From assembly GCA_947464955.1 (NCBI GenBank), contig CANHZI010000007.1, positions 1-52,479 on the forward strand: DNA of 52,479 nt, written 5' to 3'. Each line of letters starts with the position of its first letter. The first letter of the stretch is position 1. The DNA is from Oxalobacteraceae bacterium. GTDB taxonomy: Bacteria; Pseudomonadota; Gammaproteobacteria; Burkholderiales; Burkholderiaceae_D. The notes beneath the pieces are model-generated. The model had not been told where the DNA came from. It saw only the letters and a program-made list of their open reading frames with translations, and ran no database searches. Shown here piece after piece: positions 13,065 to 15,841 of the stretch. The position numbers and the translations under genes were made by a program.

Positions 13065-15168
13065 TCATTTTTCTCCTGCTGTACTAGTTTGGGCATTCAC
13101 TTATGTCGTTCATAGTAGTGCTTTGATCGTCTTCGCCTACTTACTTGACCGCGCAGGCTTGTTAAAGAAAACCCGCAATGCTGAACTCGTTTGGCGCTTC
13201 GCGCTTTTTGGCGGTCTTCTTACAGCAAGCGCACAGCTTTACTTAGGCAGCACCAATGAAGCGATCGAAAATCGCCCTGTTCTTCAAGCAAGTGAGATCG
13301 CTCATCTAGGTTATCCACTACCGGAAAACCTTCCGATTAGCAAAACGCTGATAAAGCCAGAGAATAATGCCGTAACACCTCAGATACAAACGCGAGAATT
13401 GCTGTCGAATCACGACACCAGCCGTAAGCCAGCGACAGTAGAGATCGAACTGCCGGGTAAGGTACAAGAAATTACTTCGTACTTCGTATTAGTGTGGGCG
13501 ATGATCGCCATCTTTGCCTGCCTCATCACCTATCGCTCAGCACGTTATCTGAATCGCTTAGCCGCATACTTTCCTGATGCCGACAAGTCGACCCTAAAAC
13601 ACATCATGAACCGCATGTCGGATCGCGATCAAACTCGCATTCAATTGAAAGTAAGCGAACAGTGGAATAGCCCATTTGTAACACCTGACAACACAATTTG
13701 CATTCCGCGCTGGGCCTTCACGAAACTTACTGAAGACCAAAGAGATGCCATGCTGGCACATGAGGTCGCTCATGTTTTGAGACGTGATCCGGCTTGGCGT
13801 GTTGCGATGCAACTGCTCGCGCGGATTTGCTTTTTCCAAGTCTTGAATCGGCTCGCGATCCATAAACTAGAGCTTTTAGCTGAACTCGCCTGTGACGAAA
13901 ACGCCGCCAATACCTCTGGCAAACCACACGAACTTGCAGAGGCACTTTATGCCTGTGCGCGAGTCTTTAAAGCCAAAGAGGCACCCTCACTCGCTTTGGC
14001 CATGTCGCGCCAAGGTTCACCTTTGTTAAAAAGAATCACCAGTCTGCTCGACACAGAATTATTAGCACAAGCCGCCATCCCACAAAGTAAATCAGCACTA
14101 GCGGTTAAATATAGTTTGTTAAGCGTGGGCTTGCTGGCGGTCGTCTTCAGCACCCCAAGCATCATTGTAAGTTTCGAAAAAATCACGCCGCAACTTCAGG
14201 CTGCAGTCAGCAAAGTCAGCCACTTTGCACGCGAGGTGACAATTGCTGCGAATTTGAGAACGGCGGACAAACCAATACACCAAGTAAGCGCAAACGCGAT
14301 CACGCCGCGCACAGAATTATTAGTAAAGGAAAACCTTACCGCGACATCCGAGAACAGCCATTCCCTTTCGAACACAGTTTCTTTTGAACCGACCGACAAA
14401 ACCAATTTAGATGATCTCAATGAAGCAAACCGTCTTCGCATTAGAAAGGACTTCAGCAGAGCGACAAGCATGTATCAAATGCTGGCGGAAAAAGGAAGCG
14501 TCGAAGCACAACAGGCACTCGGTGAAATGTACTGGTTTGGATCAGGTGTGCCTAGTAATCCAAAATTGGCAGAAGAATGGTTTAAGAAAGCATCTGCCAA
14601 TGGTTCGCTTAATGCAGACAAGTTTCTCGCCGTCCTTGCCGAGCGCGAAAAACATCAAAACGAAATTCAGTTTTTCACCAATGAATATGATGGAAGAGGC
14701 CTTAAATTTGTCGAGATGAATTGTAACCGTCCTGACTTTAGCACTGCTGCTCACAATAGTGTGGATATCGAAAACATGATCAATCACATCAATGAGTTTG
14801 CATCTTGTTTTAATCAATACGGAGAACGTCTCAATGCGAGTAAAGATCTTGAGCGTGTGATTCCAAATGAGGTTCTGCGTCTAATGACGGATGAGGAAGT
14901 GGAAAAAGCGATCAACCGTAGCACACGTGCGCTTGCCACCATACGTTTGACTGCCAATATGATTGCCGACGATTTTACGATGGAGAAGCGCACCTGGGAG
15001 ACCCGCACTCGAGAGTATTTTAAAGGTGCGCGTTCACGTGATTGGGTCTCGCTTAAACGGGTCGCATTGATCGGTGGCGTGGATCCTGAACTGGCGCTCA
15101 TGCATGATCCCCAGCTGGTAAAAATCAATACAGAAACAAGACTTAATATGAAGCTGCCAGCCTACTAA
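13057..15168 (+). CDS. BlaR1-like M56 membrane protease with Sel1-like repeats and a novel two-cysteine domain as sensor
   Basis: This 703-residue protein has BlaR1/MecR1 topology: helices at about 5-29, 38-60 and 137-163, a cytoplasmic M56 zinc-protease loop, and a fourth helix at about 345-370. The protease motif is H235-E-V-A-H239, with E276 in AELACDEN as likely third ligand. It should cleave, or trigger cleavage of, the BlaI-type repressor encoded just upstream. The periplasmic part differs from BlaR1: there is no penicillin-binding SxxK domain. Instead, Sel1/TPR-like repeats occupy about 450-525 (QQALGEMYWFGSGVP, LAEEWFKKASANGS), and a domain at about 550-660 carries C556 and C584 in a CxRP-x25-C-x-N pattern. 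The downstream gene repeats that domain. It starts at GTG 13057, overlapping the repressor gene, after AAAGGAAAG. Confidence 0.87.
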   Translation: MLDHFSPAVLVWAFTYVVHSSALIVFAYLLDRAGLLKKTRNAELVWRFALFGGLLTASAQLYLGSTNEAIENRPVLQASEIAHLGYPLPENLPISKTLIKPENNAVTPQIQTRELLSNHDTSRKPATVEIELPGKVQEITSYFVLVWAMIAIFACLITYRSARYLNRLAAYFPDADKSTLKHIMNRMSDRDQTRIQLKVSEQWNSPFVTPDNTICIPRWAFTKLTEDQRDAMLAHEVAHVLRRDPAWRVAMQLLARICFFQVLNRLAIHKLELLAELACDENAANTSGKPHELAEALYACARVFKAKEAPSLALAMSRQGSPLLKRITSLLDTELLAQAAIPQSKSALAVKYSLLSVGLLAVVFSTPSIIVSFEKITPQLQAAVSKVSHFAREVTIAANLRTADKPIHQVSANAITPRTELLVKENLTATSENSHSLSNTVSFEPTDKTNLDDLNEANRLRIRKDFSRATSMYQMLAEKGSVEAQQALGEMYWFGSGVPSNPKLAEEWFKKASANGSLNADKFLAVLAEREKHQNEIQFFTNEYDGRGLKFVEMNCNRPDFSTAAHNSVDIENMINHINEFASCFNQYGERLNASKDLERVIPNEVLRLMTDEEVEKAINRSTRALATIRLTANMIADDFTMEKRTWETRTREYFKGARSRDWVSLKRVALIGGVDPELALMHDPQLVKINTETRLNMKLPAY

Positions 15169-15229
15169 TCCTATTCTTGGAGCTTAACTTTCAAATCTGA
15201 AGAAAACACCAGCAAATCAAGAGCGGAAC

Positions 15230-15841
15230 ATGAGCAGCTTCCAGAAATTCGCGCAATCGCCGTATTCTTTACTCAAACAAGCTCTTGTATTTGCTGTACT
15301 GACTGCTATCGTCATCAGCTTATTTCCGTTCGTGAAGTATAGAACTAATGATGACCTTAGCCTGTTACATGAATCCCAAGATCGCAGCAAGGTTTCTAAT
15401 CTCAATGAGAAAGAGAAAGAGAAACTACTCTCAACAAGCAAAATCAAGGACCATTCAGAGCGTGAAATAGATCAAAGTTGGAGCGTAGAGAAGCTTCACT
15501 CTTACTTCAAGCAGAAAAACTGCATAAGGCCCGCTATTCCTAAGATCTCCACCACACCCGAATCCGAAGCAAAAACGATCAAGGAAATTAATCATTGGAT
15601 AGACTGCCACAATGCGTGGAACGCCGGCCTGAATCGACTCGTTGAACTGAAAAACAAGATGGATCGCGAGCGAGGAAATCGACTAGACAGGCTGCTCAAA
15701 GAATTGATCCTAGAAGATAGAGTCAATATCGAACTGGTGAGCGGTCAATATTCGGAATGGAAGAACAATAGTCTGAACTACAAGCAGAGGCTAGGTTTTC
15801 GACGAAATTTGCTGAGCGACTCTTCCTACGACACGCACTAA
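15230..15841 (+). CDS. Single-helix periplasmic protein sharing the two-cysteine domain of the upstream BlaR1-like sensor
   Basis: The 203-residue protein matches no family I know. One membrane anchor at about residues 16-36 with positive charges on both sides predicts N-in/C-out topology, leaving most of it in the periplasm. Residues 96-135 contain NCIRP with C98, then C126 in DCHNAW. This aligns without gaps with C556 and C584 of the upstream BlaR1-like protein: both pairs are exactly 28 residues apart, with matching R, P, I, N, N and L positions. The rest is charged and helical. It begins 61 bases after the protease gene on the same strand, preceded by AGCGGA, so it is probably the third gene of the BlaI-controlled operon, as a co-sensor or effector. 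Confidence 0.72.

Follow-up and report, generated by a model that had tools for sequence, protein, structure and literature searches.

The stretch of DNA analysed here (52,479 nt of contig CANHZI010000007.1 from an Oxalobacteraceae bacterium, hereafter the window) carries a three-gene operon that, on this evidence, would work like BlaR1/BlaI but has no penicillin receptor. A Sel1-repeat part and a helical domain with a conserved pair of cysteines (Cys-pair domain) would take the place of the penicillin sensor on its BlaR1-type receptor, and profile comparisons confirm that the receptor and its operon partner have this domain in common. To our knowledge, what has been worked out about M56/BlaI pairs concerns mainly their role as beta-lactam switches. 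The window offers a defined case in which the sensor is a different one, the operator is defined and the predicted regulon is small (its own operon and one lipoprotein gene), so the signal of a non-penicillin BlaR1 relative can be put to a direct test. The analysis further delimits a domain that 124 of 392 genomes sampled from the family possess and across which no Pfam or NCBIfam model scored over its cut-off.

The operon consists of the following features (positions in the window):

12589..12617, plus strand: sigma-70-like promoter, TTGACA - 17 - TACATT, from a promoter scan
12611..12636, plus strand: predicted BlaI-type operator CTACATTTGTCGTACTACAAATGTAG, a 26-bp palindrome with 10-bp perfect arms, overlapping the -10 hexamer
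12672..13064, plus strand: blaI, repressor of 130 aa, Penicillinase_R (PF03965, 105 bits, cut-off 22.6)
13057..15168, plus strand: M56 gene, BlaR1-like membrane protease of 703 aa (PF05569, 72.2 bits, cut-off 31)
14395..14685, plus strand: Sel1-repeat part in the M56 protein's periplasmic tail, approximately residues 447-543
14650..15045, plus strand: Cys-pair domain in the M56 protein, at residues 532-663 with C556 and C584, from profile matches
15230..15841, plus strand: operon partner of 203 aa, in which a single hydrophobic helix at the N-terminal side (17-35) precedes a Cys-pair domain (C98, C126)
15509..15799, plus strand: Cys-pair domain in the partner, roughly residues 94-190 (aligned by the profile over 95-143, envelope 82-189)

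The start of the M56 gene overlaps the end of blaI by 8 nt. The predicted repressor matched the MecI structures 1sd6 and 1okr (E 9e-17 and 2e-16, respectively), and a motif search found HExxH intact in the M56 protein (HEVAH, residues 235-239). The Sel1 model PF08238 matched residues 483-517 of the latter with 41.5 bits (cut-off 30.7), and the Sel1-repeat part is also backed by the helices of the structure model and by Sel1 structures in PDB; for the 203-aa partner, the Pfam search gave no PF08238 match. Both copies of the Cys-pair domain are probably periplasmic, judging from hydropathy and from the topology of M56 proteins.

Re-reading of the sequence bore out the cysteines named in the initial annotation (C556 and C584 in the M56 protein, C98 and C126 in the 203-residue protein) as well as the ungapped motif described for both, precisely NCxRP, 28 residues from Cys to Cys, I at +19, I-N at +22/+23, N at +30 and L-N at +36/+37. 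The direct pair is weak: the best ungapped identity over 46 residues was 12, a value matched by 231 of 2000 shuffles, and since it is not significant by shuffles we kept the direct pair statistics as a caveat. BLASTP of the two window segments alone gave E 9e-4, and hhalign between two trios of orthologues, one of the partner and one of the M56 protein, gave a probability of 24% with E 8e-4. The likeness is significant because of the family evidence, that is, the profile and whole-genome searches. A profile of 33 homologues with no row from the own genome matched the M56 tail with 87.6 bits and the 203-residue protein with 29.9 bits (E 2.9e-6 at Z = 100000), in line with the similarity beyond chance that had been predicted; since its rows were picked by likeness to the window M56 tail (E up to 1e-5), the first value is partly circular and the second is independent. 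When the partner trio was compared with the profile of the standalone family described below, hhalign gave 97.7% and E 2e-12. A second profile (A2, whose 25 rows include one orthologue of the partner and the M56 domain of the window, but not the window partner) matched the own genome at E < = 1e-3 in exactly four places, namely both M56 genes and the operon partner of each, and C25, P28, C53 and E83 are invariant across its rows. A candidate on contig C229 (E 0.67) lay in an unrelated frame and was rejected. We considered as members of the Cys-pair family the sequences with two Cys 28 apart, P at +3 and a profile match, and all three were found in both window segments, the match of the M56 segment being partly circular.

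A shared fold had been proposed as a further check, and the AlphaFold models of the two segments (mean pLDDT 83.2 and 72.1) both place the first Cys in a coil and the second in a helix, with a long helix after it; since the two alignments overlap and have rows in common, this likeness is not independent. In the fold search against PDB the best matches of the M56 tail were Sel1 proteins at E 4.4e-3, with none at 1e-3 or better, and the partner returned nothing reliable (best E 1.9).

Separate searches of 145 genomes of the family with each of the two segments returned many proteins in common, mostly of 235-290 residues. These standalone members have a signal-peptide-like stretch (read by eye), then Sel1 repeats and then the Cys-pair domain. 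The M56 tail has the same plan (Sel1 483-517, Cys-pair domain 532-663), hence it appears to be a whole secreted Sel1-plus-Cys-pair protein, of a kind frequent in Massilia and its relatives, attached behind the protease, and the module is larger than the two-cysteine segment initially described. Both cysteines are kept in all 67 distinct copies of the domain, collected by a profile in which cysteines weigh strongly, so that this count leans toward conservation; the spacing is 28 in 65 copies (one has an additional Cys in the region of the signal peptide) and 23 in the two copies on contig C19 of the own genome.

The genomes of the family with the domain belong to 6 of 44 genera. Among 399 genomes sampled from the order, 7 had a match, all within this family, and among 398 sampled from the phylum 3 had one (two of this family and one marginal, E 9.7e-4); the family, order and phylum samples are not disjoint, and scoring took in no more than ten first-look candidates per genome. 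A scan of named members, whose patterns derived from close Massilia-like sequences and were biased toward these, gave 25 loci, nearly all from Massilia, the others from Telluria, Pseudoduganella and one unassigned bin. Frames of M56 length with the domain were found, among the frames listed, in the genus of the window only, a 556-residue frame of another genus (G1135) being left out of this statement. Neither BlaI nor M56 adjoined the standalone copies in any of 47 loci of 4 to 14 kb (18 from the family, 4 from the genus, 25 named, with some places included twice), and the same check recovered 9 of 9 M56 operon loci as a positive control. As judged from these samples, the Sel1-plus-Cys-pair family is mostly standalone and, because BlaI and M56 are absent from the 47 loci, its domain may have a structural role or serve to bind other proteins. 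In the loci L063, L064, L065, L066, L067 and L068 there are standalone Sel1/Cys-pair genes, in tandem at several, and some of these loci lie near apparent purF, metZ, lexA, priB, rplI and dnaB (names read by eye). The weak match at locus L074 contained no match to the domain and was rejected.

In the genus of the window, 6 of 43 genomes have M56 genes with the Cys-pair domain, ten in total, and blaI lies directly upstream of all ten; the co-occurrence with BlaI anticipated in the initial annotation thus applies to the receptors and not to the 47 standalone loci. This table of the genus is incomplete, in that genome G132 has two further copies of the domain (best E 6.1e-12) outside it. The third gene varies: three operons (the window, G148 and G170) have a window-type Cys-pair partner, one has a Sel1-plus-Cys-pair partner, two (G153 and G160) have a small lipoprotein-like gene that lacks the domain, and in four no partner was recognised. 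Since a Cys-pair partner occurs in only 4 of the 10 operons, it is not required by every such receptor. The Sel1-plus-Cys-pair partner belongs to the second operon of the own genome (contig C19, locus L062, 1669-5027), with the order blaI, M56, Sel1/Cys-pair and a Cys spacing of 23. In the tree, the receptor domain of C19 and its partner are sisters (support 100/99), the window-type partners form a group of their own (98/96), and the partner and receptor domains of the window are not sisters; this topology would point to two or more origins of the partner, or else to a homogenisation of the C19 pair. Six genomes gave 24 matches to PF05569, 22 of them readable as ORFs (those at L168 and L172 have no readable M56 frame and are outside this count), and 8 of the 22 have the Cys-pair domain. 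Ten tails of the 14 domain-less M56 proteins were named by eye as TonB-like, coiled-coil, HEAT-like or other.

As for the surroundings of the operon, neither the M56 protein nor the partner had a PADLOC match at E 1e-3. Three genes form a block at window positions 771-5860; one encodes an SMC/MukB-like protein (matches to JetC models of PADLOC, best E 2.6e-22), and the two genes upstream of it have no PADLOC match. The minus strand at 16391-19093 encodes a coiled-coil protein of 900 residues that has a hydrophobic helix at its C-terminus (by eye) and no Pfam match to E 1; long proteins resembling it (by eye) adjoin operons in L098, L101, L104 and L105.

The promoter scan of 12500-16000 gave 3 promoter-like sites, 4.3 being expected from shuffles, so the promoter match is no evidence by itself; TTGACA was also found at six lipoprotein promoters. 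A BlaI operator had been placed ahead of all three genes: in a scan with up to 3 mismatches we found one ahead of the operon, and not one for each gene. With at most 2 mismatches, the operator pattern occurred at 11 sites in the 43 genomes, 8 before blaI and 3 before one orthologous lipoprotein gene, versus 1 site for the reversed control pattern. The site before blaI has 3 mismatches at G170 and at one of the G148 operons, and it has diverged further in the C19 copy. The operator-bearing lipoprotein reading frames have 77, 78 and 99 residues, and the one in the own genome, an apparent distant target of the window BlaI by its upstream sequence, is the following:

G000:C29:32007-32240, minus strand: lipoprotein gene of 78 residues, with an operator at 32399-32424 that matches the pattern perfectly

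There are six clear orthologues of this lipoprotein, a count that leaves out two matches at E 0.002 and 0.008. The operator is present at three of them (0, 0 and 1 mismatches) and the other three sites have 9-10 mismatches. The three operator-bearing genes belong to exactly the three genomes with a window-type operon, which ties the lipoprotein to the window-type switch, a link that rests on three genomes. Two operator-like sites with 3 mismatches, on C47 and C245, lie inside other reading frames and were rejected as targets. Among the matches listed from open-licence PMC text there was no matching operator motif, and a term search of PMC12565901 gave no occurrence in the text covered.

According to passages of PMC9834060 and PMC7593790, BlaI represses its targets and the M56 protease of BlaR1 cuts it once the outer domain is engaged. 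With moderate confidence, we prefer the reading that the window encodes such a BlaI/M56 switch with a Sel1-plus-Cys-pair periplasmic sensor. The domain homology, the operon order, the operator and the regulon pattern are observed in the genomes. By family membership, BlaI would bind the palindrome that overlaps the -10 box of its operon, and likewise the near-perfect copy ahead of the distant gene for the 78-residue lipoprotein. The Sel1/Cys-pair tail would read a signal from the periplasm or envelope and thereby activate the zinc protease, cytosolic by the topology of its family, and the active M56 protease would cut BlaI and derepress the operon and the lipoprotein gene. The cut site of S. 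aureus BlaI (N101-F102, as given in part of PMC9834060), aligned by hand, falls on H103-L104 of the window BlaI, and HLV is kept at this position in 10 of 10 BlaI proteins. Several observations weigh against this reading: a Cys-pair partner in only 4 of 10 operons, standalone copies with no BlaI or M56 neighbour, window partner and receptor domains that are not sisters, the less well kept blaI operators of G170, of one G148 operon and of C19, and the BlaR1 structures, which matched the M56 part only at E 0.07 in a single-sequence search. The partner most likely would pair with the receptor tail through the same domain or compete for its ligand, which would give feedback; the nature of the signal, a disulfide and a contact between partner and receptor are conjectural parts of this scheme. 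Since it is under the same operator and has the same kind of domain, the partner would fit a feedback or co-sensor role, by analogy with CpxP or ExoR for kinases. The initial proposal of a sensory module replacing the penicillin sensor stands as regards the common domain, the BlaI/M56 pair, HExxH, the operator and the lack of any penicillin-binding match; it is amended in that the module is a whole Sel1-plus-Cys-pair protein from a mostly standalone family, with a variable partner and a predicted regulon that includes a distant lipoprotein gene. A stronger form, in which receptor tail and partner regulate each other by direct domain pairing, with the Cys pair as the switch and the lipoprotein as the main output of an undescribed class of system, seems to us rather doubtful.

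It is quite possible, instead, that the cysteines form a plain structural disulfide and that the Sel1/Cys-pair part is a scaffold gauging how much of some periplasmic or envelope protein is present, rather than redox, the partner being a second binder that is regulated and stays outside the switch. Sel1 repeats are protein-binding folds, and the Cys pair is constant in all 67 copies, standalones included. The Sel1 part of a standalone member (Massilia) matched the ExoR model NF045484 at E 7e-8 with 31.9 bits, short of the cut-off of 450 (13.2 bits for the window M56 protein, also below 450), and periplasmic ExoR controls the sensor ExoS according to part of PMC7593790. Such a scaffold leaves unexplained why the same domain recurs as an operon partner in two forms. 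A redox switch, in which oxidation and reduction of the pair in the periplasm would drive the protease, is unlikely: the window M56 tail has just these two cysteines after residue 375 and both are kept in the 67 copies, but the pair is equally constant in standalones with no BlaI or M56 neighbour, and we recognised no thiol-redox gene among the operon neighbours read by eye.

We consider a true beta-lactam response, with penicillin binding supplied by the partner or by an unseen protein, as highly unlikely. By model matches, the repressor and the protease do belong to BlaI and M56, the families of the bla/mec systems, and the beta-lactam sensor feature of BlaR1 is lacking. In fact, among the Pfam matches to E 10 neither the M56 protein nor the partner has a transpeptidase or other penicillin-binding family, and the NCBIfam model blaR1_generic reached 28.6 bits on the M56 protein (cut-off 400) over residues 137-288 only. 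Moreover, the operator with at most 2 mismatches precedes no gene other than blaI and the lipoprotein gene in the 43 genomes. Finally, convergence or chance behind the likeness of the two segments, which the weak direct pair (BLASTP, hhalign trios, shuffles) would allow, is extremely improbable given that profile and whole-genome searches speak otherwise.

Among the matches listed from open-licence PMC text (titles and beginnings of abstracts), we found no description of an M56 sensor of Sel1 or Cys type. ExoR, to which the preferred switch can be compared, has Sel1 repeats, in agreement with the model match and with a literature listing. In the ExoR-ExoS/ChvI system of Sinorhizobium, as outlined in part of PMC7593790, a periplasmic protein likewise controls a membrane sensor; it differs in having a separate inhibitor and a histidine kinase, and the cut-off of the ExoR model is not reached here. 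The same part of that source describes CpxP-CpxA, in which a regulon-encoded protein shuts off its own sensor system, an analogy for the window partner by role alone, with a kinase in place of the protease. The other M56 proteins of the same genomes also combine an M56 protease with an exchangeable periplasmic tail; their TonB-like tails have CRPEYP and a distant second Cys (by eye), but the Cys-pair profile does not match them. The operon of the window is closest in plan to BlaR1/BlaI and MecR1/MecI of Staphylococcus and Bacillus, with a BlaI-family repressor, an M56 zinc protease with HExxH, a palindrome at the promoter and an added C-terminal domain outside the membrane. Unlike BlaR1 and MecR1, which have a class-D-beta-lactamase-like sensor, the window receptor has a Sel1 and Cys-pair tail; it is accompanied by a homologous partner gene, and its one predicted distant target is a lipoprotein gene rather than a beta-lactamase gene.
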